Positions 27,880-60,786 of a DNA stretch of 64,000 nt are shown piece by piece; positions within the stretch are counted from its first letter, which is position 1; each line of letters starts with the position of its first letter. The DNA is taken from assembly GCA_032358255.1 (NCBI GenBank), contig JAULBX010001891.1, forward strand, positions 88,880-152,879, given 5' to 3'. This DNA comes from Heterotrichella gracilis (lineage: Eukaryota > Sar > Xanthophyceae > Tribonematales > Xanthonemataceae). A program made the translations under genes and the position numbers. The notes beneath the pieces are model-generated. The model made no database searches, was not told the origin of the DNA, and saw nothing but the letters and a program-made list of their open reading frames with translations.

Positions 27880-28090
27880 TGCCTCACCCTAAACCCTAAA
27901 GCCCTAAAATCCCTAAACCCTTAAGTCTAAACTGCTGCCTCACCGTTGCCTTGCGGCTCCACTGCATGTGCACTTACCATCACGTTGTATCCTTAGTACT
28001 ACTGGCCTTTATCATATATATAGCGTGCCGCGCAGGTTGCTGCCACACCATTGCATCAGGGTTTAGGGTTTACGCTTTAGGGTTTGCCCC
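27880..28090. repeat. Interstitial CCCTAAA tracts and acceptor-region echoes in copy A
   Basis: CCCTAAA-type runs at about 27885-27930 and GGGTTTAGGGTTT at about 28060-28085. Between and after them, CTTGC(G/C)GCTCCACTGCATGTG occurs at about 27,951 and 28,110 and GTTGCTGCCACACCATTGCAT at about 28,035 echoes the true exon start ACCGCTGCCACACCATCCCA at 28,201. Confidence 0.75.
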
Positions 28091-28366
28091 ACTTGCAAGG
28101 ACCGCTGCCTTGCCGCTCCACTGCATGTGTTACATCTGCACGTACCATCACCTTGTAGCCTCTACTACCGTGACGATATCACTCCCAATGATCTGCGCAG
28201 ACCGCTGCCACACCATCCCAATGCTGCTGTTCTCCATGTTCCCTGCAACAATATCAGCCAGCTAACAGGCCCTGGTGGCCAATGGCGGCATCAGGGTGAT
28301 CGCCAGCATTTTCATGGACATCAGCCGCCACATCCGCACCAACATGGGCAAGCCCATAGCCCACGA

Positions 28367-28700
28367 GCGCAACCTCATCCAGGTGTTGCTGAAACTAACC
28401 CTAAACCCTGAACCCTAAACCCTAAAATGACCGCAACCTCATCCAGGTTATGGGTCTTATGAGCAAGCCCTCAGCCCACGACCGCAACCTCATCCAGGTG
28501 TTGCTAACACTAACCCTAAACCCGTAAACCCTAAACTCTAAACCCTCAATCCTAAACGCTTTAAAGGACGGCAACCTCATGCAGGTGATGGGCCTCATGG
28601 GCAACCTGTTGGTCCATGCAACGGCAGTTAAACCCTAAACCCTTAACCCTAAACCTTAACACGGCCGCAACCTCACCCAGGTGATGGGCCTCATGGGCAA
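28367..28700 (+). repeat. Five copies of an exon edge interleaved with CCCTAAA
   Basis: The block CGCAACCTCATCCAG, which ends the exon at 28382, recurs at about 28432, 28482, 28568 (GGCAACCTCATGCAG) and 28664 (CGCAACCTCACCCAG). Four of the five are followed by GTGTTG, GTTATG or GTGATG, so each keeps a GT after the CAG. CCCTAAA tracts separate them at 28398-28430, 28508-28560 and 28630-28660. The downstream block GTGATGGGCCTCATGGGCAA is also doubled (about 28,583 and 28,681). Confidence 0.9.
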
Positions 28701-28795
28701 CCTGTTGGTCCATGCCACAGCAGTGGGTCCCCCATCAGGGATCAAAGAGTGCCCCAGTCTGGATGATGGCAGGGGTCTCAGGCGGGATGGAGCGG

Positions 28796-29035
28796 CCAGC
28801 CTTTGCAGGTGTGCTCTGTTTTGGGTTAGGGTTTAGGGTTTTGAGTTTAGGGTTTAGGGTTTAATGTATAGGGTTTAGGGTGTCAGGCAGGTCAGCCTGT
28901 GCAGGTGTGCTCTGTTTGGGCTTAGGGCTTAGGGTTTAGGGTTTAGAGTGTCGGGCAGGTCAGCCTGTGCAGGTGTGCTCTGTTTGGGCTTAGGATTTAG
29001 GGTTAAGGATGTCAGGTGTGCCAGCCTGTGCAAGC
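28796..29035 (+). repeat. Three copies of exon end plus donor with TTTAGGG tracts
   Basis: CAGCCT-TGCAG|GTGTGCTCTGTTT occurs at about 28,798, 28,887 and 28,961; the first is the real exon end at 28808. Each is followed by degenerate TTTAGGG repeats (28,820-28,880, 28,919-28,950, 28,985-29,010), and CAGCCTGTGCAAGCG near 29,021 begins a fourth, broken copy. Confidence 0.9.
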
Positions 29036-29329
29036 GTGGTGTGTGGATGAGAGTAGTGGGCAGGGATGGCAGTGCCCTTACCTTGCCAATGCTCCTTGGG
29101 TGGCCAGGCACAGAGTAGGATGCTGTTGAAATTTACCTACATTTGTTCCAGCCGCACAGTTTTATGTACAAGTCATTTTTGAACATTGACATTCAAATGC
29201 TGTCATCAGAGGTGAGACTGAGTTGAGGTGTGGCTGGGCTGGAGTGCACACTTGAGTACGCCATGCTGGCGGTGCAGGGGTCAATTGCATTCATTGCAAC
29301 CTTTGGCCCTACAATGCTCACAGTGAGTG

Positions 29330-29515
29330 TTGTCTGTGCACAGGCTGCTGCTGTGGCATAGCTCTACCATTCCCATATATTTATTGTTTGTTTACGCTTT
29401 TATTTGGCATTGCCTGTGCACATGCTGCTGCTGCGGCGGCATAGCTCTCCCATTCCCATATGTTTATTTGTTTGTTTACCTCTTTTATCTGGGCATTGCC
29501 TGTGCACAGGTGGTA
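29330..29515 (+). repeat. Acceptor-side repeats before a copy A exon
   Basis: The phrase TGCCTGTGCACAGG or TGTCTGTGCACAGG, which forms the real acceptor at 29509, occurs at about 29,331, 29,408 (CATGCTG variant) and 29,497. GCATAGCTCT(A/C)CCATTCCCATAT is doubled between them. Confidence 0.85.
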
Positions 29516-30699
29516 TAAGCGGCAGGGCGTGTTGGAGGAGTGCGCGGCTTTCCTCATCTCCAGGGTGGACGACCCGTACCCTGACAGGCACCGCAACTCA
29601 TCCATCAATGCCCTCCAGTACCCCTACTCTGCCATGCTCAGCATGCTCGTGAGCATGGCTCGGGCCATCCCCGGGGATGTGCGGCCGTTTTTCAGGGACA
29701 ATGAAAACCTCATCAGTGCGGTGATGCAGTACGGCACCCAATGACTGTGCCCGGTCTGGTACACAAATGCAGCCTTGATGGTAGCGGTGCTGACAGAGCT
29801 TGAGACAGACCTCGTGCGCGGCGCCACCGTCCTGGCCATGGACAACTTTGTGGGTTTCATTACCGTCAAGGCGCGCACCCGTTTCCAGGTGGCCCACCCC
29901 TTGCTGGATGGGCTTCAAAAGGGCACCTTGAACGCCCTCGACCATGTGATGGTGAGCGAGCGCATGCACCGGCAGCCTGGCGTAAACCCTGTCGTGGTCT
30001 ACAAAAGGCAGCTGGCTGTGCTGGTGCCATGGCTGGCGAGCCTGGCAGATGCGGCCAATGGAGACCTCTGCGTTGATGACATGGCGAGTGCGTTCACCCA
30101 GCTGCTGCGCATGTATGAGGATGAGCAGGTCACGGATGAGCAGATGGAGGTACGTGACAGTAACAAGCGTTTATGTATACATGTAGCCACAATAGCAGGA
30201 AGTATAAGTACGGTACAGATGTAGTAAGTTGTTATTGTAACCTGTTTTGTTACAGTAACTGTTACACTCACAATTACAATCAGATTTTTATAATTTAATA
30301 AGAATAATAAGAATAATCATGATAATAACAATAATGATACTTCAACAGGCTTTGGTGCTGGCACCGCTGGCAGCCCACCTCGGCGCTATGGAGCTTGCGC
30401 AGGGTGCTCGTGGCAGTGCCACAGCGCGCCTGATGGACCGAATCAAGCACCTTCTGGATGTCATGAGCTATGCAATGACGTCATTCACGCCGGGCGCTGG
30501 TGCCAGGCCGTTTCCCCGCTTTGTCAAGGTGGGGCCCACACTTCCCTCCCCATTCCAAATGACTCCCCTTGCCGAGGCTGCTCGAGTCTTCAGACCAGTC
30601 AGGACTGGTTGTTCACAAATGTGGCTCATGCGTGACGATGCTGGCTGCTGCACAGGATGTACAGCGTACCTGAACCCTCCCCAATATTGTGGACACTTG

Positions 30700-31060
30700 T
30701 GCCTGCCCCCCTTGGTTCTCCTCATGCACCGCATCAGGCTGCTGCACATGTACCCTAAACCCTTAAACCCTAAAATCCTACCTACGTGCAGGTGCGCCTG
30801 GCCTTCTTGGTTCTCCTCATGCACCGCACCAGGCTGCTGCACATGTACCCTAAACCCTTAAACCCTAATCATGTGCAGGTGAGTCTGACCCTTTGGGTTC
30901 TCCTCATGCACCACATCAGGCTGCTGCACATGTACCTAAACCCTAAGCCCTAATCATATGCAGGTGCGCCTGGCCCCCTTGGTTCTCCTCATGCACCGCA
31001 CCAGGCTGCTGCACATGTACCCTAAACCCTTAAACCCTAATCATATGCAGGTGCGCCTGG
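30700..31060 (+). repeat. Five tandem copies (about 86 bp) of an exon start with telomere-like spacer
   Basis: Copies begin at about 30,703, 30,786, 30,868, 30,957 and 31,043. Each contains TTGGTTCTCCTCATGCACC and AGGCTGCTGCAC, and the first four end in ATGTACCCTAAAC, CCTAAACCC-TTAAACCC, and then (in the last four) the acceptor TGCAG. Only the fifth copy runs on into the rest of the exon (31051-31250). Confidence 0.93.
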
Positions 31061-31539
31061 CCCCCTTGGTTCTCCTCATGCACCGCACCAGGCTGCTGCA
31101 CGCACTGCTGCGCCTAGTGGAATCCCAAACATCCGCTGTTGAGACCCCTGCTTCAAGCATCGTCAACCAATGTCTGCATGAGGTGGGGAGACACCAGGAG
31201 CTGGCTGGTGCGATGTACCAGGACACGGAGGTGATGCAGAGGGTATACAGGTGGGTGCTTGGGTGAGCGGGGGGTTTACGAGTGAATGATGCTGGGGATA
31301 TGTCAGTGAAGAGGGGGGGATGGGTTTGACTGCTGGTGGGTAGGTGGTGAAGGGGTGAAGAGATGATGAGCCAAAGTGTTTAAAAAGTTTGTGCAGTTGG
31401 TGACTAGATATGCCTGGGGTTTGGGGATGTCAATTATAACTCTGGATCGGTTGTTTTGGTAGGATGGGCCAGCGCGCGTCTGTTTACTGACGGCTATAGG
31501 GCACTGGAAAATGGTCATTGATTGTGCAAGATCCTGACT

Positions 31540-31815
31540 GGCTGATTGACCAATCCATGGCAAGGCATTGTGCAGATACACTGTGGTGCCTTGTGCCCAC
31601 CGTGGCTGATCCACGGGCTTGATCACCGTGGTTGATCCACTGTGATCGATGCGGTGTGATGGATCACCATGACTGATGCATTGTAATTGGTCATCGCCTT
31701 TGATCGCCTTGGATGATGCATGTTGCTGCTCTGTGCCCACGGTGACTGATCCATGTGTCCGATCACTGCGATTGATCACTTCTGATCGATCATTGTGACT
31801 GCTCCATTCCCACCG
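31540..31815. repeat. TGATC-rich degenerate minisatellite
   Basis: Between the last good exon of copy A and its remnant, short units of the form TGATCCACxGTGATCGAT, GGATCACCATGACTGATGCA and GATCACTxxGATTGATC repeat irregularly. Many units are themselves nearly palindromic around TGATCA. Confidence 0.7.
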
Positions 31816-31905
31816 GCGGTGCCCTGCAGGTACATCATGAACCTTCCCCCAGAGGCCCACAGTGGTCTTGCCAAGTGCAGGGCCGTTCCACCGCTATGTT
31901 TCTGA

Positions 31906-32853: not shown

Positions 32854-35800
32854 ATGTCGTCCAGGTGGACCAGCGCGTCAGTGAAAGAGCTCAAAGCCTA
32901 CCTGTCGAGCTGCAAGGTCGACTTCTCTGCTTGTGTGGAAACAAGCGAGTTGGTGTGCCTGTGCCAGGCGAGCGAGAAGAGGCAGCGACAGCAGGTGCAC
33001 CCCGGGTTGCCAAATGTTTCAGTGCATGCATGCATATGATGCCATGGCAATATTACTCACCGTTTGCGGTTTTAGAGCACTGAAAACAAAGAGACCCTTG
33101 TTAAATAGGCCATGATGGTGTCACACATCGCTGCAAACCCGTTTGCAAGACACCCACAGCAAGTTTCCCCTCAATTGAAGCTACCTTGCACGCCATTGCA
33201 TGGATATCAGATGCTGTGCACTCTGCCATAACACCAAGGACAACACACCTACCTTCCCTAATTATACCTAAAAGGGATGTGTGTGTTGATCCCTGTGACC
33301 AAGTTACACCTGGGTACCATATGCAATGGTCATGGACACCTCAACCCAAAGCTTTTTAAATTAGGTGGCCAGAGCTAGACCTTCTGATACTACGCCCCAC
33401 CTCCCAGCAGACCACGCCACCCCCAGGCACCTTTCAAGGCCCCACCACCCACCCTGATGACCCTCCATTGCTCAAGCTACCAGTGGTACGCGCTGGGCAT
33501 ATAGAAAGCATGCCAAATTTGGCAGGTACAGATTGACACTATTATATGCGCTGCTGATATCATGATGCGGGCGCCGGTCAGCGCACGCATGGCTTGCGCG
33601 TAGTCAGCAGGGCGTGCAATCTTCATGGAGCGACCACAAACAAGAAGCTACTAGGTAGCTCCTTGGGTAGATTATATCTTTACAAATGCGTCTGTCTATT
33701 TACAGCGGCCCCCGGGTTCTTTCTTTATTCGCCTATTCTCGATCAGTTTCATACCTTGTAACTTTTTACTGTGACATGACAGAATTCATCGTTCGTGGTG
33801 ATTGTAGCACAGCAGTAGTGAAATGCATGTTGTGTACCACACATTGGCATGGCCTCTGGGGCACCTGCACGCCGCCCATCACTGCTCTTGGGTTTGAACC
33901 CTTTTGGCAAATAGGTAGGGCCTGCTAGACTGCCTTCTTCACCCAAAGCCCTGGTAGGGGGACCGCCTACTTTATTCATTGTTGATTGCGCCTGATCCCC
34001 TACGAGTGTGTTATCCCATGTTGACCTGCCTCCTAGGCTTGCTCTCTCTCACTCTGTCCTTCCTCTTCCTCAACCAACACCCTCACACTTATTATGACTC
34101 TTCTATATTTATTTTATATACCTTATTCTATTTAGTTATATTACATTTGTATTATTTATTATGTTTGATGTTTCCCTACCAGGTTCCCCGTGTGGCGGAT
34201 GATGAAATTCCAGGTCTGGATGCCTTCATAGCCAGTGCACCCCCCCTCTTCCCGAATTTCGATAACACCACACCAAACGGGGCAAACCTGCAGCACCAGC
34301 ACACACTGGCTATGGGCAAACACATGCAGAGTCGCGTGCTGGAGGAGGTAAACTACAGTCAAAATTGAATCCAGCTATGTCAAGGATTTGCTGAAGCTAA
34401 CAGACATTTAATCGGGGCTATGCTTAGATGCTATGCCCCTGTTACCCGCGCCATGTTCCACTGGTTGCTGCCCGGCCTGGCTGTGTTTACGTAATACAAT
34501 ATATTGTTTTGTTTCAATACATAATGATTGCTGGTTGTGGTGCGCCGCCGTGTGTGGGTGCGTTTTGTTTCTTTCTTTCTTTCTAGCGTGTGATACAGTG
34601 ACACATGTGACACGGTGGCCTGTGCATCAGTGACCCAATACTGTGACATATGAGCCACTTTGAGAGCGCTCTAACCCCTTTATGACCTTCATGTGCTGCA
34701 GAGCGCCCTGGGCAGCGAGCTGCGCAACATGTTGACACAGGGGGTTATTGACAACTGGCGGGCATGGTGCCTCTTTTTACAGCGCATGTCTCAAGCAGCC
34801 AGCCTTCCTAGATCATGCAGATTGCGCATCTTGACGCCATGACCGCCCTGATGGTGGCACTGCGGGAGGGGTACACCTCGCCCCTGCGCCTGGACATGGG
34901 TGAGTGTCTGCATGTGCATGTGACACAAGCAATGCCAGGACAGGCCTGGGTGGCGCATTTTTGTGCAAGGCTGATTGCTGATCTGGCTTTCTTGCCGGAA
35001 TGGATGGCCAAGGAATTATTCCAGGAATTATTTTATCATACATGCGGAACCCACATGTGCATCAGCGGGGATGTTGTGTATACTGCTCCCTCACCGCCCC
35101 TCCATCACCCAATGCTCACACACCGCCATGCTGTGTAGACCGCAGCCTCACCATCACCATGCGTGTCCCTGTAGAGCTTCTGCAAATGCGCATGGAGCAG
35201 TGCTCGCTCAGTGCTCGCTCAGTGCTCAATACTCGCTCAGTGCTTGCTGAGTGCTCAGTGCTCGCCCAGTGCTTGCTGAGTCACCATCGGCTCCTCTCCC
35301 GTACGCCCACTCACCACAGGTTGCTGCTCCATGCAGACCGCTGCCTCACCATCACCATGCTCCTGTACTCCATGCTCCCTGTGGTCGGCAGCGCACAAGG
35401 CCTGGTGGCCAACGGCGGCATCGGAGTGATCACCAGCATGTTCCTGGACATCAGCCACCACATCCGCACCACCAGGGCCCCGCCCTCAGCCCACAACCAA
35501 AGCCTGTCCCAGCTGCTTGCGGTGCTGGATAACGTCCTCTCCATGGCGACCTATGTGGCGCACCCCTCGGGGCTGCCGTGGTCCCACCCCGACCTGGATG
35601 AAGGCAGACCTTTCATGTGGGAGGAGGCGGCTGCACTGGATGCCCAGGAGAGGCGGGCCATTAGGGATGCGGCGGGGCATGCAGGCCTGTGCAGGTAGGC
35701 TTTGTGTGGGGTTTAGGGTTTAGAGTTAGGGCCAAAGTTTATAACCCTTCCAGGGCATGCCAGCCTGTGACACCATTTCCTGTCAGCATAGCTTTTTCTT

Positions 35801-38800
35801 GGTTAATGATATAATACTGATTTTTGTGGTAATGAGTCCTTTGTTTAGCTCTTACTCTTCCTTGTACATCTGGGTATTGCCTATGCACAGGTGGCTGGTG
35901 CGGCAGTGGCTGATCTGTAAATATTCTTGACGTTTGTTCCACCACATACGAATATGCGCGGTGTTCTTCTAAGTATGCACCAGGTGTTGATATGGCAGAA
36001 GGCCATGTTTTCTTTTGTTGTGCTTTGTAGTTGCCCCCAGTTGAAACGATATGATTTGGTTTGTGCATAGGTGGCTGATACGTCAGGGAGTGATGGAGGA
36101 GTGCGCGGCATTCATCGCTGCAGAGATGGAGCACCCCCGCCCAGACAGGCACCAGCCAGTCAGCTCTTGGAAATTCCTCGTCAGTCCAGACGCCCCCACC
36201 CTCCCCCTGCTGAAATTCATGGCTCGGGTCATCCCCAGGGAAGCAGGGCCATTCTCCAGGGATAACAAAAAACTCCTCAGTGCGGCGTTGAAGCACAGCA
36301 CTCAAACGCAATGCAGTTCCTGGTACACGCATGCCGCCGAGCTGGTCGCGGTACTGGCAGATCCAGACGTAGACATCATCCCCAGGACCAGCTTTCTGGC
36401 CATGGACGGCTTTGTGAGTTTCATCACTGGCCAGGATCCCCGCCCCACCCCACAGGGCTTTAAGGTCGACACCTTGAAAGCAATCCACAATGTGATGAGT
36501 AGCGAGCGCAGGCACCGGCAGCCTGACGTCAAGTCTGCCGTGGATTATAAAGCGCAGCTGGCGGTGCTGGTGCCATGGCTGGCGGGTATGGTGGATGGGA
36601 GCACCGGGCATATCTGTGTTCCTGATGCGGTCACTGCCCTCACCCAGCTGCTGCGCATGTATGAGGATTGGCAGGTGACAGATGAGCAGATGGAGGTAGG
36701 TCATGATCAAATTACAATTAACAATCAAACAATCACAAATTTACTCACATGTATGATGATATCCTCATACATCGATGAGCAGGTGACAGATGAGCAGATG
36801 GAGGTGCGACACAGTTAATATCATATTAAAGATATGATACTCACCATTACAGCACCATTTGCATGACATCACAATCGCTATTGTTCACTGTCAATGACCA
36901 GATGACGGATGAGCAGGTGGAGGTAGGTCACAAGCACAGTAGCAATACCGGGTAGTAACCTTACCCGGTTACAGTTAAGTTACAGTCACGTCACAATTGC
37001 AATCGCAGTTGCAATCGCAGTCAAATTAAAAGAATTCGAGGATGTACGAGGATGGGCAGATGGAGGTAGGCCACAAGCACCAAAAAAACACAGTCGCAAG
37101 ATGGTAATTGCAACGGTTATAGTTTTAAGTGGCGATGGCTGCTGGGAGGTAGTTCTTGTATAAAGTGGCTGTGTATGTGAAACATAGTTAGTCAATGCCA
37201 CAGTCATGATGCTGCTCATGTCACCTCAGGGAGTGTCACATGGGTGAAATTCAAAAAGCCTGAAACGCTGCTCCCCAAAGCAGACTTTAGTTCTGGCACC
37301 CATGGCAACCCTCTTCAGTGCCATAGCAACTGCATCGGGCGCCCAGGACATGAAGAAACTCAGCAATCGAGCCCTCAACCTAACGGAGGCCTTCAGCAAT
37401 GCAATGTACGCACCCTGCGACACAACCACCCCTTGCTCCAGCTTCATCAAGGTGCGCCCCTAAACCCTAAACCCTAAACCCTAAACGGCCATCCCTGGCT
37501 CCAGCTTCATCGAGGTGCGCCCCCATGACTTGAACCCTAAACCCTAAAAGGTCACCTTGCTCCAGCTTCATCAAGGTGCGCCCCCGTGACCTAAACTCTA
37601 AACCCTAAACGGTCACCCCTTGCTCCAGCTTTATCAAGGTGCGCCCCCCTCCCTGTCACAGCCACCCTTGTCGAGCAGTGTCCTGCCCCCGCCATAATGA
37701 AATCTCCCATGTGCATGCTGTGTAGACTGGGGATGCCAAAGTACATGCTGCTCAATCCACAGTAGGATTGCACCATTCGGGGGTCTCCCTTAAGCCTTAG
37801 ACTCAGTCTAGAAGCAGCAGTAGTAGTTATCCCACATTCTATATCATGTTTTGGCTTGAAGCAGCAATATTCCACAACTTTTCCAAGTATTAGAGCAAAG
37901 GATCTGCTGCAACCTTCCCTTGTTGGCAGGGCTCCTTCCACTTAGAGTTGCCAACCTCTTGACATTTGCTGTGTAAAGCTGGGGCAAATGCGCAGCCACG
38001 CTTGGCCCTCCAACCTTCTCTGTGCCACACTGCGTACAATAAGCAAGGGGTATATAGAAAGAGATATCTATATACCCCTTGCAATAAGCCTGAAAACCTA
38101 ACAATGGCCATCCGGGCACTTTCAAAAACAAAAGAATTAATAATGTGCAGGAGCGCCTGTGCCCCTTGGTCTTCCTCATGAATCGCTCCCGGCTCCTGCT
38201 GGCCATGATGCAACTGGCGGATTCAGGTCCACTGACCACTCTCGAAGGCTTTGCCGTGGGAGTCATCCACCAAAGCATGTGCGTGGGGTGGGGCGGCCAC
38301 CAGGGGCTGTCTGAGGCGCTCTACCAGGACGCGGAGTTGATGCAGGGGGTGTACAGGTGCGGGGGCATGGAGGTGCATGGAGGTGATACAAGCGAGGTAA
38401 TGTTCCACTTTCACAGTGATCAGGAGGTTCAAGTTTGATTCAACGGTGATCAACATTCAATCAAATCATTGAAAGTTCACAGTGATCAGGAGGGGGGAGA
38501 AGTAGTGGGATGCATTACAACGTCAATGCTTTCTAGTAACTTGACTTGGAGTTAATTAGCAGCGCTGCACCGCTGAAGGAATGAACCATGTGTAAAGCAT
38601 GCTCGCGGGTACACCTCCTGTATGCATACACCATAGCTGCCTCACATACCTTCTCATCATGATCTGAGTCAGCACGCAGTGGTTGAAAAATTTGGTTTTG
38701 GATTCAATGTGACTGGCAGATTGTGAGAAACTCATACAACTGATAAGTACTTCATGTTTTGAAATAATTACAATTATTGACCCATGCATGCCCATGATGC

Positions 38801-47873: not shown

Positions 47874-48738
47874 GCACCAGCAGGGAGGCTACGGCGTTAA
47901 GATTTAGGGTTGGAAATTTAGGGTTTAGGGTTTACTAAGCGCCTTGGTGGTGGCGTTGGGATGGGCCCCTGTTTAAAGGGGGGGGGGTGGGGGTGAGGGG
48001 ATAGCACAGTGGCACGTTGAAGCTGCTGCCTTGTGGGTCTGCGGGAGCACGTGGAGGTGGGTGGGGTGTGGATGGAGGTGGATGTTTTGTACATCAGATA
48101 AATATGGGTCAGCAGCGTGGATTGCCATAACTAGCGCGGTAGCAGTGGGTGGCTGTGTTTCGCTCACTGGGACTCTCGGTGAGAGTCTCTATCACTCAAA
48201 ACATTTTGCATTGCGCAGTGACTCACGTACAATTTATTGCTTGTATGGTTCCACTGCTGCAATTTTTGTTTTACCGGGACAAGCTAGTTGTTCATCTCTA
48301 CAGTGGGTTTGCTCTGGCTTCTGGGTTGGAAGTGCAAATTTTAAGAATGGAGTCATATTTGGGGATCCCCCACTGAGTAATAAACACGTGGTCTCCAACC
48401 CACAACCACGATGGGCTTACAATAATCCGAGCAGTAGCTACTCTTGCTGTAATTCAAGTGTATCTTAACTCGTGCAGCTGTGTATGGTGCCACCGGGTTA
48501 TGATAAACGGACACATTGGCATGTTCACATGTGCCGTATGTTGATGTCGTACTTTCTTCCAGAAGCGTTTCGCCAACGCAGGGGCCTCGAGCATAAAACT
48601 GCTGCGTACCACCATTGTAAGCACAGTGAGTAGTTAATCTTCCTAAGACACGTTTGGGTTGGCGACCACTTTAATACCTTGTGGCATGCATTTTGGTCAG
48701 TGGCATGCGTTTTGGTCAGTGGCATTGGGGGGTGAGCC
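47874..48738. other. Intergenic region
   Basis: GGGTTTAGGGTTTAC-type repeats at about 47903-47935 and a poly-G tract near 47,979. No coding exon was found. Confidence 0.5.
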
Positions 48739-49671: not shown

Positions 49672-52171
49672 ACACCACTTCAGATGATGTTGGCAATGCC
49701 CTTCCCATGACAGTTTTCTTCCCATGCCAGCCCATGCTGGCTGCTGTTCTCTTGCCCATGATACTATAGTAGACAGTCCCTGCTTTTGCCCCGCTGTGTT
49801 GACAACTTTTGCAGTGTTCACCTTTGAACAAACAGACGTGGTATGGTACCGTATGATGGGTGCGATCGCAGAATTCGAATCAGTGCCTCTTGTAATTTGG
49901 TGCTAGTTGAGCTCTGTGTGCCTGACAAGTATGCGGCTCCTGACCCTGTACCAGTGCTGGTACACAGTGCGGTACAAAAGATACTGATGAATTGGCTGCC
50001 AAAGCCTTTGGCAAAAGTACAGTTGATTTTGATCACGAGGGCTGAAATCCTAGCTGGAAACCGAGACAGGCTGTCCAAAGTGTGCAAAAGCTTCTATCCA
50101 CTGGTTCCCACAAAGCTTCTGACGAGATATGCGCCTCCAAAAGAAACCTTCAGTCAAGGTTTCAACACCCTGCAAGTTGTACACTTCGATCTGCTCGTTC
50201 TCCAGACGACTCCGCCATTGGCTGGCCCTTTGTTCCAGTGCTTTCAGGAGACAGGCTCTCGCACGACCCAGCTGTTACCATGGGGTCGCCAGTTACCACC
50301 CAGAAGGGTCCTTGTCTACGGGGCAGCAGGGCATAGCGGCGTACTCAATGGCCACTTCTGGAGTGGGCTATGGGACCCAGCACGCATGCCTAACGCTGTG
50401 CACCAAGGCGATATGGGCGCTCTTGGCTTCCTGCCTGGTGGGTGCAACTGTAACAATACGTGTAACTGTGCATGGTGGGCTGCACACACGCCGTGCACAC
50501 TACACCGGCCAGTGTCGCCTTTACATGCGGGGAAAACGAGATAATACGAGTTTCCTGTGGTGTTTGCCACCGCAAGCCCCCTCTGCTTGGTTGGGTCGTC
50601 GTCGATGCATCGTCGCCACGGTTGCCATACAGTTTATGATAGTCCGGCTGTGGCCAGCCGTTGTGCGTTTTGAAGTCTTCGACAGTGGTCTTTGGGTTGA
50701 CAGCTGTTCTAGAAGACAAGTCTTGGTTTGCACAGCCCAACTGGCGTACCAAGGACACTTTCTCTGTCCACCAATTCCGTATCTGTGGGCAACCCTTCCA
50801 TGCCCAGATACCTTTGGGGCTGGCCAAGGGGGTTGAGGCTGCCGTGCGTACAGTTGTTCTCCCGCATCCCGTTGCACTATGTTTGGTCTGAGTCGTTTTC
50901 CAAGGCTGTGTCAGGCGTCCAATTTTGTTGGTTTTCCCAGTCGTACACCGGTTCGTTCTGGCACAATGCTTTAAAGGCAGTGCTTCTCGTTAGGCACCCC
51001 TTTCAGTACCTTAAAGGAACTGCGCGACTTCTGACAGCTATTAGCGTCGTATAGGTTTTCGCCCCTTTCTTCGCCCACCTATCTGTTTGGACTGTGGTTA
51101 CCTACGTTTAGTCGTGCCGAGCTACCTGAGTTTGCCTGGTGTGCCTAGTGATGTCAACAGTGAAGTGAACTCAAACGCGAAGAAGCAAAATCGTCCAGCA
51201 AGACCTAATGGGGGCCGTGGTGTTTGCCCAGTGGGTTTTGCAAGTTGGCTTTCGGAAAGCTGTGCAGTGCCGCTTGTAGCGTACATCGCTGCAGCCACAC
51301 CACGGTCCATGGATGGTCCACAGTTTTGGCACAGAAACACACCGACCCGGCTGTGTATGTGTGCACCAGGCTGCTGCTTGGCTTGGGTAGCGTTGCTACT
51401 GGTACGCAGTGACTGCCGTGAGACGCGCAACACCTGAGATTCAAGGCCTCGGGCAACCTATACTACACCAAACCCTGCGCAGCACAAGCATGACTGACCT
51501 GTATTGCTTGGTGCAGGTGGCTGGGCAGGCTTGGGCCTACTTGGTGCACCAAGACACGCTGAGTGAGGGTTTCCTGGCAGGTGGGCACCCAACTCTTCTC
51601 TATAACACATGCCTGATGGGTTGCTGCATATGCAAGTGTGTACTCCACCTGGCATGAAGTCATCTTGCCTGTATCCGCCAGACCTCCCCATACAAACGGA
51701 AAGGGGCACTCCTCAGTGCACTGGGTTGACACCGTCTGACAGTGGGTCAGTAACGCCCTGCTGTGCCTTTGGGCATCCCATACCCCTCACACCATTTCGC
51801 CTGTGTCTGGATCATGGCCGTCAGGCAACCTTGTCGTACAAAAGCGGTTGCCCCCCCACCGCTGGCAAGCCAACAGGCTCCTTAAACCACACCCATCCAT
51901 ACCACACCTTGCAACAGCTACCCTTCACACCCTGCCCCCATCCAGCAGTCCCCACCATCACATTGCAGATACCAAACCACATCCCTACCCACCACATCGC
52001 AGATACCAAACCCCTCGACATTATCAGCCCCGCCCAAGGTAGCTCAAAACCCCTGGTCACAAACCATATGCGTGTAAACAGGCCTTCCAAAAACCACGCC
52101 CACCCCACCCACTCGCACCACCGCAAACATGCACCAGCAAACCCATATGCCCCCGCCCACCACCACCACAG
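49672..52171. other. Long stretch without a recognised gene
   Basis: Overlapping open frames on both strands at 49,843-50,836 show no family motif, and no reverse transcriptase, integrase or transposase signature was seen. The upstream exon(s) of the receptor-like kinase (signal peptide) should lie in the right-hand part but could not be picked out. Confidence 0.4.
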
Positions 52172-52600
52172 ATACCAAGCCCCTGGTCATCATCAGCCCG
52201 GGCCTCACCGCGGGTGGCTGCCGGTGTAGCCCCGAGCCCCTGGCCGCGCAAACGCACCGCTCCTACCAGCGCTCCCTCTACGCGCACTGCTACTTCCACT
52301 TCCCCGATGTGCCCATCCCCGTGTGCCGGGTGGACACCTCAATACCCTGCACGGGGTTCCCGGCGGTCATCAACAGCGAGGGCGTGGCGTGGGACCTCTG
52401 TTTACCAGGTGGGTGTGCAGCGCCCCAGCGTGGGGTTGGGGGGTGGTGCATGCTGGGTGGTGGTTGTGCCGGCACAGCTGTGTGTGGGGTGCAAGGACAT
52501 GGAGCAGTGGATGTGGACACCTCAAAACGTCGCACAGGGTTCCCAGCTGTCTTTGACAGCGAGGGCGTGGTGTGGGACCTTGTGTACCATGTGGGTGGGA
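51955..52600 (+). repeat. Exon-edge copies around the first recognised receptor-kinase exon
   Basis: Acceptor side: GCAGATACCAAACC at about 51,964, GCAGATACCAAACCCCTCGAC at about 52,001, and the real CACAG|ATACCAAGCCCCTGGTC at 52,172. Donor side: the exon end containing GTGGACACCTCAA, GGGTTCCCGGCGGTC and GACAGCGAGGGCGTGG-type phrases (52328-52408) recurs at about 52,513-52,600 with GTGGACACCTCAAAACG, GGGTTCCCAGCTGTC and GACAGCGAGGGCGTGG, again followed by a GT. Confidence 0.9.
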
Positions 52601-55600
52601 CCTGCCAGCACGGGCCTGTGCGGGATGTGCGTGATGCTGTGTTGTGTGTGGGGTGGTGGGGTGCAGCAACATGTGGCAGTGAACTGCTGCAGGCAGGGGT
52701 AGGGGCAGTTGCTCTACGCCAGCTGTCATGCTGCGTGCTGCACCTACACAGCATGGGGTTGAGATGGTGAGAACATACGCCCAAGCAGCAAAGGCCCGTG
52801 TGTGCCCTGTATTTATAATGAGGGTTGCCCAAGTTAGCCAGTGCCAGTGCTCTTCCTGGACACTGGGTGTACATCCCCAGGCAATTGTTCTAACTGGACG
52901 GGCTATGGTGGTATGGGTGTGGAACAAGGCAGTGCAGCCTGTGGCACCCTTCAGCTTGTGCACACCCCAGTTCTAGGCCTGGGTATCAAGGCATGCATCC
53001 AGGCACAGCGCCACAGAAATGACCAATCGCCACGAAATCGACCCACACAGCCAGTCATTCCCCGTACCCCACCCCTCACCCACCCCTGCTCCCTTGGCGA
53101 CGCGCAGGCGCGCACGCCCCCACCACCCGCGCCGGGTGCCAGTGCAAGTCCTCTTTCCAGGTGCCCAGCCCCACCTGGAACTACAACGTGAGCGTGGCAG
53201 GGGGGTGCGCATGGACGGGCGACAGGAGCAACTGGTGCCCCATAGAGCCTGGCAGCTGCCCCGATGAGGCCACCCCCGAACACCCCACGTGGGACTTTTG
53301 CCAAGGTGGGTGGAAAGGGCCCTGAAAGCATCGACTCAGTGCGCACGGTGGACTGGGTCAGGCATGGCAGTGGAGTGGTAGGGTTTCATGACGGGGATTC
53401 TTGGCGGCAGTCGGTGATTGCAGCTAGTAATTTGACAGATCGGCCAGTGTGCAAGACCGTCCTGGGTGTGGGGGTCGTTCCTGGCTGTGCATTCGACATG
53501 CCCGTTTGGCACAGCCTAGTGATACAGCCAAACAAGGGTGTTAAGTGTTTAGGGTTTTCCACAGCACCTGTGTTGACACAGCCAATGAACTGTGCACGTG
53601 CGCCTTGCCGACTCCAACTACCCGCATGTCCATCGCCAATGCTCCACACAGCCTAGCAACACATCCCACACCACGGCCCCTCCCCCCTCCCCACCTTAAC
53701 CCCCCCTTTCCCCCCCTCCAGACGACATCGCGATGTCAGTGGCCACCCGCATCAACGACCCCCAGGGGGCGTGGATCGGGGAGTGGCACTACGGGTGGCG
53801 CCGCGCCACCCAGGTCAGCATGTTCCGGGCCAATTGGACCACCAACCCCCGGATGCGCGACCGCACCATCGGCAGCTACTCTGACTTCCAGTGCATGATG
53901 GGGCTGGAGGAGTGCGAGAACCTGCTGCTGCAGGGCTGGCTCAACATGGGGATGGTGCGTGGGGATGGGGGTGGGGATTGAACACAATACTACTGTATTA
54001 TTCTTATAATACTATATTTGTTCCCTGCGAGAACCTGCTGCTGCAGGGCTGGCTCAACATGGGGATGGTGCGTGGGGAGGGGGGTGGGAGGGTGCGGGGC
54101 TAGTGCGGGTGGGCAGGGGGGTGGGGCTTCTTACTGTGCATGCTGGGGAGTGAATTGGTGGTGGTGATGAATACGGTGCTGTATGGGCAATCTGGGACCC
54201 ATGGTGCGGTTTGAAACCCTTGAGTAGGGTTGTGCACCTGCCCCCCACACACCCAAGGAAACACATCCGCTCACGGCCCCTACTAACCCACAGCCATCCG
54301 CCCTTTTGCACTGAACCACTATTTTGGGAAAGGACAGCCACCAAAACGCCCCACATCAGCCGGCCACATGCACTCCCGGGGTTGCATGTAGTTTCCCAAC
54401 CTTTCCTCTTGACCATAGGCACCTCCCTTGACTCTGACTCCCCTATTCCTCCCCTTGCCCTCCCCTGACTCCCCCTTGCCCTCCCCTTTCCCTCCCCTGA
54501 CACCCGCCTCCCCTCCCCTTTCCCTCCCCCAGGACGACTACCTTGAGAGCCGCACCCACATCCCGCTGAACGGGGAGGTGTGCATTAACCAGACCTGCAT
54601 GCTGGGCGCGGTGGTGGACCCCAAGGAGCCAATGCCCATGGACTTCAAGATCAAGGCTGCGGGGCTGACGGTGCTGCTGTTCCCATACGCCTCATGTGAG
54701 TGTGTCTAGGGTTTAGGGCGGCTGTTCCCATACACCTCATGTGGGTGGATTTAGGGTTTAGGGCTGTTTAGGGTTTAGGGCTGCTGTTCCCATGCGCCTC
54801 ATGTGAGTGTGTCTGCCCCTCCCATTGCTACTCGGTGTTCAACTGTTTGGTGCGAGCGCGAGGGTTCAAGGGGCTGGGCAGTTTTGAGACCTGGGGAGGC
54901 CTCAGGGTATTGGCATGGTACTACCTGACGGGACCACCCAGCATTCTGTTCCCACTGGCGATGGTGACTGGGTCCCGATTGTGGTGTCCCCTGCATGTTG
55001 ACCCCCCCCACACCCCCTCGATGCACCCCCCACGTCATGTGCGAGCTCGTTTTAGAGTTTAGAGTTTAGGCTTGCTGCCCAGCACGCTGACCCCACATGC
55101 ACCTCCGTATGCAGGCCCCCGCGTCACGTGCGAGCTTGCCTTGTGTTAGGGTTTGGGGTTTAGGGTTTGGGGTTTGGGGCTTCACACCTGCGTGTTGACC
55201 TACTCATTTCCCCCTTGATGCAGTCCCGCGCGTCACGTGCGAGCTGGTGTTCTGCCCCCAGCGGCGGCGCGGCGCCCCGCATGCTGACCTGGACTCCTGC
55301 TCCACCCCCCTGCGCAGCACATGGATGTACGGGGTGCCACCTGTCAGCGCGGTCATAGACGCAACGCAGTCGGTAAATCCTAAACCCTAAACCCTAAACC
55401 CTGCGCAGCACATGGATGTACGGGGTGCCACCTGTCAGCGCGGTCATAGACGCAACGCAGTCGGTAGGGCTCGCCTGCACCCACCAAACCCGAAACCCAA
55501 GATACCCATAACAGGCACTGGGGGTCGCCCATGCCCACCAAACCCTAAAACTTCGACCCAAAAGCAGTCGGCTCCCTCGCACCCTTTCACGTCCTAACCC

Positions 55601-58600
55601 ATTGCAAACCCTGCATTGTACGAGACTAGTCCCTTCTAGGGCACTGTAGGGCACATTGCGCCCGTGTGAAGGATAAAACGATATAACAGGACCATTTCAT
55701 ATCTCAATACCCTTGCCCGCGTGTATCCTTCCGCCTGACATCGCCCCTTCTCTCGCAACCCCCTGGTAGATCATCACAAAATCTCACCATCATTCCCCTT
55801 TCCCTGCAGAAAGTGTACCCCACCCTGGCAGTGTCTGCCCAGCTCAAGTGCACCTGCACCAACGTGGCATCCTGCCTGGCGGCTGTAAAGGACACCCGCA
55901 TCCAGTTCTACTCCCAGTCATTCAAGGAGCTGCCCCTTGATGCCGTGCCCCTGGCCTCGGAGGGTTTCCGCAACTCCAGCAGGACCCTAGTGACCTGCAC
56001 CGCCGCGGAATGCACGCTGGATGTGGACCCCCTGTCCCTGGGGGCCAAAACCACCTGGCGCACTGCGGCGTTCAGCATCCAAGGGGTGTACAACCAAGGT
56101 GAGGGGAGGGGAAGGCAGGGGGGCGGTGGTTGCTGGGCTGCATCAACACCATATTATTCCATTATTCTGTTATTCTGTCCTACCTCAACGCCATGCCCAT
56201 ACCGCGCGCTGCTGCAATACCGGGCCCCAATCGGGATCTGCACCATCCCCATACCATTCGCAATCAACCCCACTGAACCCCCCCTCGTCCCCCCCATCCT
56301 CAGTGTCCCGCGTGGTCTACCTCGCCCCCCCCGTCCCCGCCCCCGCCGCCCCTGCCGCCGCCCCTACCCCCACCGCCACCCACCAGGCCCCCGAACAACT
56401 CATCACAGTGGCCGTCCTGGCTGTCCTAGTCACGGTCGCCGTCATGTCGTGCATCAACCGCAGCCACCTACCCAACGCCGCCGCGCAGCGCACGGCGCAG
56501 GCGCTGGCGGCCGCAGGGGAGGCGTTCGCCACCCCCTCCCCGTGCGACAGCGGGGTGGGGACCCCGCGGGCGAGCGAGGCGCTGGCGGTGCGCCTACCCA
56601 CCCAACCGCCTCTGGTGACGCACCAGCCGCGGCAGATGGTTGCTACGGCGCTCCCCTTGAGCAGCGGGGATGGCAGCGTGGACTTCGCCCCCGCGCTGCT
56701 CGCTGACCTGGCGCACCTGACGGCGCTGACGGGGGGCTCGCCCAGCGCGCACACGGTAAGGGGTTTTGTAAGGGTTGGGTAAGGGTTTTGTAGGGTTTTG
56801 TAAGGGGTTTTCCGCCCGCGCTGCTTACTGACCTGGCGCACCTCACGGCGCTGAGGGGGGGAGGCGCCCAGCGCGCACACGGTAAGGGTTTTGTGAGGGT
56901 TTGTAGGGTTTTGGTAAGGGTTTGCAGCCGCGCTGCTGCTGCACCTGAAGGCGCTGACGGGGGGCTTGCCCAGCGCACACACGGTAAGGGTTTTGGTAGG
57001 GTTTTGTAGGGCTTTGGTGAGGGTTCGCCCTCGCGCTGCTTGCTGACCTGGCGCACCTCACGGCGCTGACGGGGGGCTACATGGTAAGGGTTTGTTAGGG
57101 TTTCGTAAGGGTTTGTAGGGTAAAGGTAAAGGTTATCCCTCCGCGCTGCTTGCTGACCTGGCGCACCTCACGTGAGGCGTTTTCAGGTATTGTGCCCCTT
57201 TCTTTTTGGACAAAACTCTCTTTACCTGTTTTCAAGAACCACCTGTTTGCAGGCTGTTTGCAAAAATTGAAACAGCCATGGGGGACCCCCCCTCCCCTCT
57301 TACCATCTCCCTCTTACCATCCCCCGTCCCTCCCCCCCCGCAGCCCCCGCAGGACCACACCACCCTCCCTACCCCCCCTTCTTTCCGCCGCAACTCCTCC
57401 GGCTTTGACCTGCACAAGTACGACTGGTATGTCCGGCCCGACGACATTGAGATCTGCAGGCAGGCATCTGGCGAGAAGGTGGTTCTGGGCAAGGGCAGCT
57501 TCGCCACAGTGTACCGCGGCACGTGGCACAAGGTTACGCCTGTGGCTATCAAGGTGGTGGACATGTCCAGCTGTGAGGAGGCGGATCTGAAGCACTTTGA
57601 GCGGGAGGTGGGTGTGCAGGGTCTAGGGTCTAGGGTTTGGGGTTTAGGGTTTAGGGGCTTGAAGCGCGATGAGCGCAGTTACGAGGAGGCGGACCTGAAG
57701 CACTTTGAGCAGGAGGTGGGTGTCTAGGGTGTAGGGTTTAGGGTGCAGGGGCTATGAGGAGGCCGGGCTCAAGCACTTTAAGGGGGAGGAGGGTGTTTGG
57801 GTTTTAGGGTCTAGGGTTTAAGGGCTTGAAGCACGAGGGGAGGGGATGTGGGTGCATGGAGGGGGGTTGGCTGGTGTATAACGGGATGGAGGCGGCTGTG
57901 TGTTGGAGGCATGCACAGGGGAGGGGGAAGGAGGGGGCAGCATGTAGGTTTGTCACCTGGGGATGGCCCCTGATGAATGGGAACATGTCGGGGAGGACAG
58001 GTTCCCAGTATGAGCGGGGATGGGAATAGGGACAGGTGGGGAGGACACAGTGTGAGTGTTGGCAGTAGAGGGGACAGGTTTCCATCCTGGCTCATCCCAC
58101 ACCGCATCGCACGCACCGCATCACACCACAACACAATATCTCACGTCACGCCCCCTCTGAATCACCCTTGCCGCTCCTCCCCAGATCCGGATCCTGTCCA
58201 GCTGCCACTGCGCCTACATCGTGCAGTTCATGGGCTCATTCAATGGGCCCAACCACACGGTCATCATCACGGAACTGATGGAGGGGGGCACGCTGTCTGA
58301 TGCCATTGCAAAGGGGAGCGTCACGTGGGCCAATGGGTGCGTGGGGGGTGGGGGGTGGGGAGGGTCGAATGGGGGTGGCGGTGGTGGTGCGGGTTGTGTG
58401 CGTTTGGGTCATGATGTGTCAGGATGCGCATGCGTGCGCAAGTTTTGTAGGGTTAAAACTGTAGTGAAGTGCGCCTGTTGGGGGTGGCTATAGGACGCCA
58501 TTGCAAAAGGGAGCAACCCTTGGGACATTGGGGTGTAGCTGTGTGTGTGGTACGATAAGCCCCGCCCCGTTGTCACCCGATTTCCCCCCTGTGCTGCAGC

Positions 58601-60786
58601 GGCCCCGCCATCGCCCTCCAGGTTGCCAGGGGGTTGCACTACCTGCATGCAAACAATGTGCTGCACCTGGACATCAAGTCAGCAAACGTGCTGCTGTCAG
58701 CAGAGGTACGGTACCTAATCCCAAAACTGGAACCCTGAAACCTAAAACACTAGCAGCGTGCTGCACTTGGACATGAAGTCAGCAACTGTGGTGGTATCAG
58801 CAGAGGTACATACCCAATTATAAACCCTGAGTCTGTGGGGGATTGGGTAGGCACCTGCCTGCGCCCACCTGCTCACCCCCTCCCAGCTCCTACCCTCTAA
58901 CCCCCAGTCCAGTCCAGCCCACGCCTCCCGCCTGCTGCCAACCCACCCCACCCACCACATTGGCAGGAGCCGCCTACCCCACCGCACCCACCACCATGCA
59001 CCCACCACCATTCATTCCTCACCTGCCAGGGCCAGGCCATGGTGTCACAACTACACCCTAAACCCTAAACAGCCAGGCCATGGTGTCCAAGTTTTGCCAG
59101 CGTCATGCAGACCTGGTTTGCTAGACGCTGGTAGCTTCCAGCATCAAGTCAGCAAACGTGCTCGTGGACATCCCCCCACCCCACCCCATGCCGCACCCGC
59201 TCACCCCGTCCTCCCCCCACCCTGCAGGGCCAAGCCAAGGTCTCGGACGTGGGCCTCGCCACCGTCATGCAGACGCGCTACGTCAACGCCTCCCACACAG
59301 GCGTGAAGGGCACGTGGGCATGGATGGCACCCGAGGTCATCCTGGGCCCCTCAGTAGGGTCCAAGGCAGACGTGTACAGCTACGGGATACTGCTGTGGGA
59401 GCTGGTGACGGGGGAGAGGCCAATGCGCCACCGCATGCGGCCCGTCAGGTGGGTGGATGGGGTGGAGGGTAGGTTCTTTGTAGGTTTGGGAGGGTTTTGG
59501 GAGGTGGGTCAGGGGAGGAGGTTCGTGCGCCACCGCATGCGTCCCGTCAGGTGGATGGGGGGGAGGGAGGGTGGGAGGGGAGTGACATGGTGGTGTGGGG
59601 AGGAGGAAGAGCGGGGTTATATTCTGTGTAGGCGTTGTAGGCTCAAGGGTGGATGGGGAGGTTTGGTGTGACGGGTTTAGGGTTTATGTGTATGGCGGTA
59701 TGGATACCCTTGCCATGCTAGACAGAACATATGGATTGTGGCACGCGGCCTGCTCTAGGCCGCTGCGTCCTGTTTCAGGTGCTTGCCACCCGCTGTATTC
59801 TCCACTCATGGGGACGCTACAAATTGCGATCTGTTAAATGCTCGTGAACGCGCGCTCCCTTTAAACACTGCGCCATGTGGCGCCACCACACGCAACCCCC
59901 CATTTCCACCCCCATCTCACACACCCCACCTCCTACACGCAGGGCGCCCGAGGAGTGCGCTGAGGAGATCGCCCACCTCATTTCATGGTGCAACAAAACC
60001 GACCCCAACGCGCGTCCGGGCATGGAGGAAGTCATCCCCACACTTTTGAAATACATCGCGGCCCAAGACCTCTCCGAGGGTAACCCCAACTCGCGCGCCC
60101 TCTACACCCTCCGCTCGCTGCGTGCCACCAGCATGCGGGCCGCCGACGGGCAGTCGCCGGTGGGGGGTGGGGGGGGCGTGGGGTGGGGGCCGGAACCCGG
60201 ACCCAGCAGCGCACCAGTGTCGCGGCGCCCCAGCCGCTCCTATGATGGGACAACGCACGAGGAGGCGGGGGGCGGCTCGGCGCCGCCCCCGGGCGCGGCG
60301 GGGGACGACGGGAAGCACCCCTCCAGCAGCGCGGTCTCGCTGTCCCTGGAGCAGGAGTTCGGTCCCCGCCACCCGCTGTCGGCATCCCCGGGATCCAGCC
60401 CCACGGGCAGCAGCCAGGGCGGGGCGCACGGGGCGCACATCCCCAGCGCCAACGGCCACGCCGTCCACCCCGCCCTGATGGCGACCCATGGGAGCGACTT
60501 GGCCTTCCAGCCGGGCCAGATCCAGATCCAGGCCATGCGCCAGGGGCCCCTCAGCGCGGGCGCCTTTGCCCAGCCCAGCAGCGGGACACTGGGTGGGCGG
60601 CCACCCCTGTCGGGAGGCGCCCCGAGTACAGGCACAGGCACCAGTACCAGCACGGCTGGTGGCAGTGGTACATTCACCCAGCCTGTTCCGGGCGCTGCCT
60701 ACGTGGCGATGCAGCGCACGCTGTCCGAGGAGTATGGCCCGGTGAGGAACAGCGCGCGCAGAGGAGCCGGCAAGGGGACGCAATAG
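52172..60786 (+). CDS. Receptor-like TKL (Raf-like) protein kinase; 5' end unresolved
   Basis: Exons 52172-52408, about 52881-52980 (end uncertain), 53161-53305, 53722-53954, 54533-54695, 55224-55372, 55810-56098, 56304-56755, 57344-57607, 58185-58336, 58600-58705, 59228-59448 and 59943-60786; joins from the third exon on are in phase. The N-terminal part is Cys-rich with possible N-glycosylation sites (NCSN, NVS, NWTT, NSS) and no known fold recognised. A Pro/Ala hinge precedes one membrane span, LITVAVLAVLVTVAVMSCI (56398-56454). The kinase follows: Gly loop LGKGSFATVYRG, VAIK lysine, FMGSFNGPNHTVIITELMEG hinge, catalytic loop LHLDIKSANVLL, KVSDVGLA and GTWAWMAPEVILG. HRD is HLD and DFG is DVG, but the catalytic Asp, Lys and metal-binding Asp remain. 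The C-terminal about 220 residues are Ser/Gly/Pro-rich. Signal peptide and first exon(s) are missing. Likely plasma-membrane receptor; ligand unknown. Confidence 0.88.
53918..54075 (+). repeat. Donor-side exon copy in the receptor-kinase gene
   Basis: GCGAGAACCTGCTGCTGCAG, GGCTGGCTCAACATGGGGATG and GTGCGTGGGG end the exon at 53954 and return exactly at about 54,028-54,080. The spacer is AT-rich (TATTATTCTTATAATAC), without telomere heptamers. Confidence 0.97.
54674..54815 (+). repeat. Three copies of exon end plus donor with TTTAGGG tracts
   Basis: GCTGTTCCCATACGCCTCAT|GTGAGTGTGTCT (exon end 54695) is followed by AGGGTTTAGGG, then GCTGTTCCCATACACCTCAT with GTGGGTG at about 54,721, more TTTAGGG units, and GCTGTTCCCATGCGCCTCAT with GTGAGTGTGTCT at about 54,783. 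Confidence 0.97.
55014..55250 (+). repeat. Three acceptor-side copies of an exon start
   Basis: CACGTCATGTGCGAGCTCG (about 55,030), CGCGTCACGTGCGAGCTTGC (about 55,122, after TATGCAGGCCCC) and the real GATGCAG|TCCCGCGCGTCACGTGCGAGCTGG (exon start 55224). TTTAGAGTTTAGAGTTTAG and GGGTTTGGGGTTTAGGGTTT lie between them. Confidence 0.93.
55312..55465 (+). repeat. 60-bp exon end plus donor copied once across a CCCTAAA tract
   Basis: From CTGCGCAGCACATGGATGTA to ACGCAACGCAGTCGGTA the exon end (about 55,312-55,374) is repeated without a mismatch at about 55,402-55,466, with AAATCCTAAACCCTAAACCC between. The near identity marks it as the youngest event in the window. Confidence 0.98.
56699..57175 (+). 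repeat. Five copies of the same exon end with TAAGGGTTTTG spacers
   Basis: The exon end (GCTGACCTGGCGCACCT-ACGGCGCTGA-GGGGG and CCCAGCGC-CACACG|GTAAGG, real end 56755) recurs in worn form at about 56,820, 56,934, 57,035 and 57,150. Spacers are degenerate GTAAGGGTTTTGTAGGGTTT, a stretched version of TTTAGGG. Copies two and three keep the GTAAGG donor. Confidence 0.95.
57570..57830 (+). repeat. Three copies of a kinase exon end with TTTAGGG tracts
   Basis: GAGGAGGCGGATCTGAAGCA with CTTTGAGCGGGAG|GTGGGTG (exon end 57607) recurs at about 57,684 (GAGGAGGCGGACCTGAAGCA, then GTGGGTG) and about 57,756 (GAGGAGGCCGGGCTCAAGCA, then GGAGGGTG). GTCTAGGGTTT and GGGTTTAGGGTTTAGGGG tracts separate them. Confidence 0.95.
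58640..58810 (+). repeat. Donor-side copy of the catalytic-loop exon end
   Basis: GTGCTGCACCTGGACATCAAG, GTCAGCAAACGTGCTG and TCAGCAGAG|GTAC (exon end 58705) recur at about 58,757-58,810 as GTGCTGCACTTGGACATGAAG, GTCAGCAACTGTGGTG and TCAGCAGAGGTAC. The spacer has worn ACCCTGAAACCTAAAAC. Confidence 0.93.
59020..59250 (+). repeat. Mosaic of copies from two different exons
   Basis: CAGGGCCAGGCCATGGTGTC (about 59,028) and AGCCAGGCCATGGTGTCCAAG (about 59,070) mimic the real exon start GCAGGGCCAAGCCAAGGTCTC at 59,228; ACACCCTAAACCCTAAACAG stands between. Then AGCATCAAGTCAGCAAACGTGC at about 59,139 is a copy of the end of the preceding exon (about 58,674-58,692). Confidence 0.85.
59410..59560 (+). 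repeat. Donor-side copy of a kinase exon end
   Basis: GCGCCACCGCATGCGGCCCG with TCAG|GTGGGTGGATGGGG (exon end 59448) recurs at about 59,527 as GCGCCACCGCATGCGTCCCG with TCAGGTGGATGGGG. Spacer GTAGGTTTGGGAGGGTTTTG is G-rich and only loosely telomere-like. Confidence 0.93.

Follow-up and report, generated by a model that had tools for sequence, protein, structure and literature searches.

Exon edges of four algal genes are duplicated in their own introns, often beside telomere-like repeats, in a pattern consistent with local break repair

In a 64-kb stretch of the Heterotrichella gracilis genome (contig JAULBX010001891.1, positions 88,880 to 152,879; hereafter the window), exon edges have been copied into the adjoining introns, often next to tracts of the telomere-like heptamers TTTAGGG or CCCTAAA. 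The copies lie in four genes, a tandem MYND pair (MYND1 and MYND2), an F-box/ankyrin gene and a kinase gene, which together have 72 exon edges (36 donor and 36 acceptor). This duplication is real and far beyond chance. We think it probable that the copies are scars of local repair of staggered breaks or paired nicks, in which a segment X became X-filler-X, often with telomeric filler. All counts come from the DNA sequence alone of this single window, and the gene models are predicted.

A sequence-only reading of the window had proposed that exon edges are copied in these four genes and that their neighbours RPN12, DDX6, GLYK, an esterase and RPT4 are free of such copies. We masked telomere bases and compared each edge with its own intron, using a hand-made junction list and setting the threshold at the 99th percentile of a null built, for donors and acceptors separately, from 2274 pairings across genes. 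An own-intron copy above this 1% null level was found at 28/72 edges in the four genes (16/36 donor, 12/36 acceptor), compared to 0/34 in the control genes at the same threshold (0/17 donor, 0/17 acceptor; Fisher P 2.8e-6), as had been proposed. The control models are DDX6, RPN12, RPT4 and a merged model of esterase plus GLYK, with the gene names given in the earlier reading. In the GLYK/esterase block, 0/12 edges had a copy despite long introns (mean 545 bases).

A stricter, junction-anchored search recovered 35 copies at 21/72 edges (14 donor, 7 acceptor); therefore, the earlier estimate of more than twenty sites is correct. Using a diagonal scan, we found 39 families of local duplications in the window, 27 of them within the four genes. 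Consistent with the claim that copies are anchored on splice junctions, 19/27 of these families contact an exon edge, where 4.2 would be expected under random placement (P ~1e-10, an approximate value because two of the 27 belong to one locus and families could be interdependent). Among the eight that were not edge-flagged, 27942 and 27965 (one locus), 29330 and 45468 adjoin or approach acceptors by eye, and 52330 extends to its donor in a gapped alignment; only 31584, 38410 and 45353 seem unconnected with exon edges. The best pair reaches at least 95% identity in six of the 27 families. Five of these contact an edge, and the sixth is an 18-base interior pair at 38.4 kb.

The copies have the same geometry at donors as at acceptors. 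Measured up to the telomere tract, the copied piece at the 21 anchored edges has a median of 27 exon-side and 9 intron-side bases, with the longer reach on the exon side at 18 edges, on the intron side at 2, and one tie (sign test P 0.0004). This excess could be partly due to better preservation of the exon copy; it holds at the best-preserved sites, with 65/3, 42/21 and 27/5 exon/intron bases at 55.3, 53.9 and 45.8 kb, respectively. Exon-side identity is 0.92, and the splice dinucleotides are largely kept (GT in 21/24 donor copies, AG in 10/11 acceptor copies). Of the donor copies, 10/24 share the reading frame of the genuine donor, about the chance level. The identical copies that had been reported at 55.3-55.46 kb, 55308-55375 and 55399-55466, indeed agree at 68/68 bases, and the right copy starts with CCCT, in register with the CCCTAAA tract.

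Copying is also local and direct. Against the 28/72 edges with a direct match in their own intron, only 3/72 have an inverted one, and matches in other introns of the same gene (16/612 direct, 20/612 inverted) are at background; introns of other genes gave 26/1692. MYND1 and MYND2 were left out of comparison with each other in these other-intron counts. Direct matches in the same gene's other introns never exceeded score 30, and the highest, two inverted matches at score 31, both come from one kinase acceptor. In the anchored search, the copies include intronic bases. Locality and direct orientation make it unlikely that most copies were carried by RNA or by mobile elements. Specifically, the single sequence spread across many introns that marks introners was not found (16/612 direct matches, a background level), nor were the trans copies in either orientation and of spliced sequence that mark retrocopies. 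By contrast, direct, local duplications of tens of bases are what paired-nick patch repair leaves.

We next consider the telomere-like DNA. The window holds 31 TTTAGGG and 34 CCCTAAA heptamers and 49 telomere-like tracts, 33 of them scoring at least 14, a score that no tract reached in five Markov shuffles. It contains 34 internal arrays of at least 13 bases. Direct repeats flank 21/34 of these, in 11 families; the other 13, including those at 4.98, 32.0, 46.7, 47.9 and 62.4 kb, are unflanked by this criterion, and weak flanking copies can be seen by eye at the 28.0, 35.7 and 59.1 kb arrays. In 128 comparator loci chosen solely for a four-unit telomere-type array (9 viral_contigs loci and at least 119 genome_contigs stretches), only 6/180 arrays lie between direct repeats; these records are viral or prokaryotic, and show that arrays can lack flanking repeats while saying nothing about other algae. 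Either heptamer orientation occurs in the flanked arrays, as had been stated (11 arrays of G and 10 of C type, or 7 and 4 once grouped into families).

Telomere bases are present in 16/27 families against 9.8 expected (P 0.007), an expectation that is inflated because the arrays themselves feed the background. The proposal that most copies are telomere-spaced is broadly correct. At least 7 telomere bases lie in the span of 14/19 edge families, but only 11 of these are clear, since the families at 58.3 and 59.4 kb hold just 7 such bases each and the tract of the 58.7 kb family falls outside its main repeat pair; five edge families (35.1, 36.7, 40.0, 52.0 and 53.9 kb) have none. Thus, telomere sequence is the common filler and not the sole one, because the 98% copy at 53.9 kb carries an AT-rich filler. 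When five non-telomeric fillers were compared with the window, nothing longer than 13-base matches turned up as another source, save one inverted self-match of 22 bases.

Telomere-type arrays were also seen elsewhere. In IMG/VR contigs L001-L004, L006, L007 and L009, from different metagenomes, they stand beside short tandem repeats with 115-116 bases between neighbouring blocks, which looks like one conserved repeat region. Among the matches listed, many Pedobacter contigs (L031, L039, L040, L043, L059, L060, L062-L065, L067, L068 and others) carry at least four consecutive TTTAGGG units.

How might such copies arise? A segment X of ~20-70 bases would first be opened between staggered or paired single-strand breaks. 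Filler would then enter the gap, either telomeric repeats (synthesized by telomerase at a free 3' end, or a captured telomere fragment) or different DNA, and fill-in of both overhangs would yield X-filler-X; later slippage or repeated events could multiply the unit. We infer the opening and the filling; the X-filler-X products and the multi-copy arrays are read from the sequence, where inserted filler is flanked by direct repeats. If the opened segment straddled an exon edge, its second copy and the filler would land harmlessly in the intron. Where X lies within an exon but holds AG|GT, its duplication would give a donor and an acceptor and so a new intron. Break repair with telomere synthesis or capture, one of two routes that the sequence-only reading had offered, fits because the copies are local and direct and flank telomere tracts like target-site duplications; the presence of both telomere orientations would be expected if extension could start from each of the two ends of a break. 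Most of the events lengthen an existing intron without creating one.

A probable exception lies in MYND1. Its intron 28383-28680 is absent from MYND2, which reads through the site (35337-35694), and the MYND1/MYND2 protein alignment is gapless there once 28383-28680 is omitted. Within this predicted intron an exonic CAG|GTG segment has been multiplied with CCCTAAA tracts between the copies (diagonal scan and anchored search), and exon end and exon start are joined without interruption in two of them, at 28446 and 28584. Such joined exon-exon copies occur in just 1/53 introns tested, this one, and in 0/990 null pairings. Exonic AG|GT copies would thus supply both splice sites with the protein unchanged at this point, as in intron gain by tandem duplication, and the two joined copies argue for gain in MYND1 and against loss in MYND2. 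This looks like a newly born intron, its splicing being predicted.

Several observations weigh against local break repair as a full account. First, copies are scarce inside introns. An interior control with the copies themselves in the sample (26% of 340 queries above threshold in the four genes) was superseded by one that excluded points in 25 hand-listed intervals or near telomere bases. Outside this mask, at least 7/395 sampled interior-intron points had a copy, a lower bound in that the mask also covers 27868-28240, 29330-29512 and 45353-45665, which were not edge-flagged. Four of the seven come from one GATC-rich stretch and three lie beside edge families; between gene models, 12/558 points had a copy, at three loci. 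Likewise, no more than 8/27 families in these genes escaped the edge flag, though survivorship predicts many intron-interior duplications. When we simulated interior duplications at twice the divergence of edge copies, 459/630 were recovered, or 391/630 with indels; at three times the divergence with indels, 288/630 were. Purging or moderate decay therefore does not explain the anchoring, and neither survivorship nor detection alone explains the concentration at edges and the sparing of intron interiors. Breaks confined to exons and the first ~20 intron bases would account for it, and we infer, as a working position, that breaks in the four genes fell mainly in exons or within ~20 bases of them. 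Second, among six sites viewed (37.4, 39.9, 45.8, 54.7, 55.3 and 59.0 kb), in-register microhomology is clear by eye at just two, 39.9 and 55.3 kb. Third, the exon-over-intron reach (18 vs 2) is unexpected from random breaks, though the exon copy is better preserved. Fourth, internal telomere arrays have been linked to break repair in mammals, and there duplication accompanies just 6/130 rodent and 4/25 primate loci (Nergadze et al., 2007, PMC2246262, in the available part of that paper). Finally, MYND1, host of the candidate new intron, carries two in-frame stops; in an unspliced pseudogene, the array would be a plain insertion.

A stronger claim is that splice junctions are preferred sites of breakage and repair, with telomerase or telomere capture as the usual source of filler. 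On this view, introns would constantly receive fresh copies of exon edges, AG|GT sites within exons would be converted into introns, and telomere sequence would feed an intron growth and birth that is tied to gene structure. We consider this rather doubtful.

Break repair could also be given a cause for the anchoring, namely a splicing- or transcription-coupled lesion at exon edges, such as nicking where RNA:DNA hybrids of exon size terminate or where nucleosomes on exons have their borders, mended by telomerase or alternative end joining. Anchoring, exon-biased reach, few interior events and the same geometry at donors and acceptors speak for it. However, the lesions themselves are only postulated, and neighbouring genes, some with similar intron length, are free of copies, so that any coupling must be gene-dependent; we regard this version as rather improbable.

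If instead tandem duplication struck at random, exonic events might be purged and intronic ones decay unseen, leaving visible those that span a junction and retain a constant exon copy. Exon copies would be expected to evolve more slowly, no wholly exonic family occurs in the four genes except the AG|GT case, and the families at 31.6, 38.4 and 45.35 kb seem unrelated to edges. Yet the 19/27 families at edges against 4.2 expected, the edge contact of 5/6 families of at least 95% identity, and the 62-73% of simulated interior cases still detectable at twice the divergence make this unlikely. From family counts, interior counts and simulation, we judge pure survivorship and pure detection bias to be insufficient. 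We also noticed an old duplication of ~150 bases within a long intron of the esterase/GLYK model (15871-16199, with 8 telomere-type bases in its span), an interior example outside the four genes.

Selection for the copies as decoy or alternative splice sites, or for telomere motifs as splicing signals, is very unlikely. The kept GT (21/24) and AG (10/11) might suggest it, but this is expected from age alone because the whole exon side is highly identical (0.92); moreover, telomere orientations are near-equal (11 G, 10 C) and just 10/24 donor copies are in frame. A role of the telomere repeats themselves as splice sites or branch points, and pairing of the telomere G-strand with splice motifs, were also rejected, as each would fix the orientation, which is mixed.

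The other route that the sequence-only reading had offered, template switching involving RNA, fits poorly. Telomerase is a reverse transcriptase, and it or a retroelement enzyme could in principle copy pieces of pre-mRNA or mRNA that are then inserted beside the gene. Telomerase-RNA sequence has been found inserted at rodent breaks (PMC2246262, in the part available). Nevertheless, the matches that rise above background are sense copies in the adjoining intron and include intron bases, and joined exon-exon copies occur in one intron only; on the background-level inverted and other-intron counts, which exclude MYND1 against MYND2, RNA or cDNA copying was rejected, and we consider it extremely improbable.

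The individual sites, all on the forward strand and numbered from the first base of the window, were found by both diagonal scan and anchored search unless noted. Besides its candidate new intron, MYND1 has weak exon-start copies around two telomere tracts at acceptor 28201 (27868-28240; own acceptor score 29, p 0.0009, otherwise by eye), copies of the exon end with TTTAGGG-tract spacers at donor 28808 (28794-29044), and an exon start copied four times upstream of acceptor 31051 with CCCTAAA tracts between (30698-31101). Telomere spacers are absent from three MYND2 sites, the single copies at acceptors 35337 (35134-35360) and 40146 (40028-40160) and the three copies at donor 36695 (36671-37080); they are present at donor 37451, which has three copies with CCCTAAA-tract spacers (37426-37648), and at donor 39877, which has a single copy with a TTTAGGG spacer (39860-39935). 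The F-box/ankyrin gene contributes a single copy with one TTTAGGG as spacer at acceptor 43446 (43347-43465; anchored search) and a 32-base, 97% copy flanking a TTTAGGG tract at donor 45812 (45786-45895).

The kinase gene supplies the remaining eleven. Copies lack telomere sequence at acceptor 52172 (51955-52199), at donor 52408, where the exon end is copied (52330-52597; edge test and gapped alignment), and at donor 53954, whose 63-base, 98% copy has the AT-rich, non-telomeric filler (53913-54088). TTTAGGG spacers separate two copies at donor 54695 (54673-54814) and one at acceptor 55224 (55109-55245), and spacers of TTTAGGG type separate two at donor 57607 (57570-57826). The 68-base exact duplication at donor 55372 flanks a CCCTAAA tract (55308-55466; array test in addition). 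At donor 56755 the exon end is copied repeatedly in an array whose telomeric spacers are degenerate (56684-57172), at donor 58336 a worn copy (58299-58532), at donor 58705 a single copy and a 21-base fragment (58658-59162), and at donor 59448 a single copy with a G-rich spacer (59424-59575).

These sites rest on gene models made with a small codon-and-splice-site finder, which merged several neighbouring genes and whose output was edited by hand, guided by paralogue comparison. The window has 55.6% G+C and numerous introns. Once the copies are spliced out, the F-box/ankyrin model has an uninterrupted frame between its ATG and its stop, and so has the kinase model across the exons used, its 5' end being provisional. 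Pfam matches support the F-box/ankyrin gene (Ank_2 2e-26, F-box-like 2.1e-6) and the kinase part (Pkinase 2e-53), and the MYND finger of MYND2 narrowly fails the cut-off (4e-4). MYND1 and MYND2 are tandem paralogues, alignable over ~480 residues. Compared with MYND2, the frame of MYND1 is interrupted by two stops (28263-28265 and 29742-29744), and no counterpart of the last MYND2 exons was found in MYND1, which may be a recent pseudogene. Within MYND2, the frame of exon 34702-34899 is broken relative to MYND1 unless an additional small intron is assumed, and an intron holds a short tandem array with an 11-base unit (35198-35284). No relatives of a 338-residue MYND2 piece were found in viral_contigs, or of one MYND2 exon in phage records.

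The sequence-only reading had held that no named process predicts such copies. Intron gain, patch repair and intrachromosomal telomeric repeats have all been described (PMC3443670, PMC6726248, PMC4974935, PMC7971508, PMC6410037), and TTTAGGG is regarded as ancestral in green algae (PMC8226300). Several processes are thus named, namely telomerase-associated insertion at breaks (PMC2246262), intron gain (PMC3443670, PMC4974935) and patch repair (PMC7971508); the part of the claim that stands is that none, in the available portions of these papers, predicts concentration at junctions. The same portions support the following comparisons. The short intrachromosomal telomeric arrays of Nergadze et al. 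(2007, PMC2246262) sometimes have target duplications, but duplication is exceptional there, whereas here 21/34 arrays lie between direct repeats, mostly at exon edges. MYND1 28383-28680 resembles introns gained by tandem duplication or break repair, with AG|GT copies as both splice sites and an unchanged protein alignment (PMC3443670, PMC4974935); it differs in its telomeric filler, its several copies, and the recurrence of the same type of scar at many introns. Patch repair in plants likewise makes local direct duplications of tens of bases, but telomeric filler and junction preference are not described in that part of the account (PMC7971508). Introner elements share recent algal intron gain (PMC6726248); here, however, no mobile sequence is shared and copies match their own exon. 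In open-access literature, no telomere-spaced exon-edge duplications appeared in titles and abstract openings among the matches listed, most subscription papers being outside this scope. The phenomenon is best regarded as a case of introns being gained and enlarged through tandem duplication during break repair, with telomeric filler; the junction preference is its puzzling side.

The origin of spliceosomal introns is a long-standing question, and few cases have been caught. This window offers about 20 scars in all grades between exact and worn, what looks like a newborn intron that still encloses ancestral exon sequence, and a paralogue that preserves the state before. Collectively, they suggest a DNA-repair route by which introns grow or arise. 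Should the pattern hold across the genome, a living alga would make it possible to measure how fast introns grow, which targets are chosen and which enzymes act, and telomerase would acquire a gene-shaping role away from chromosome ends.

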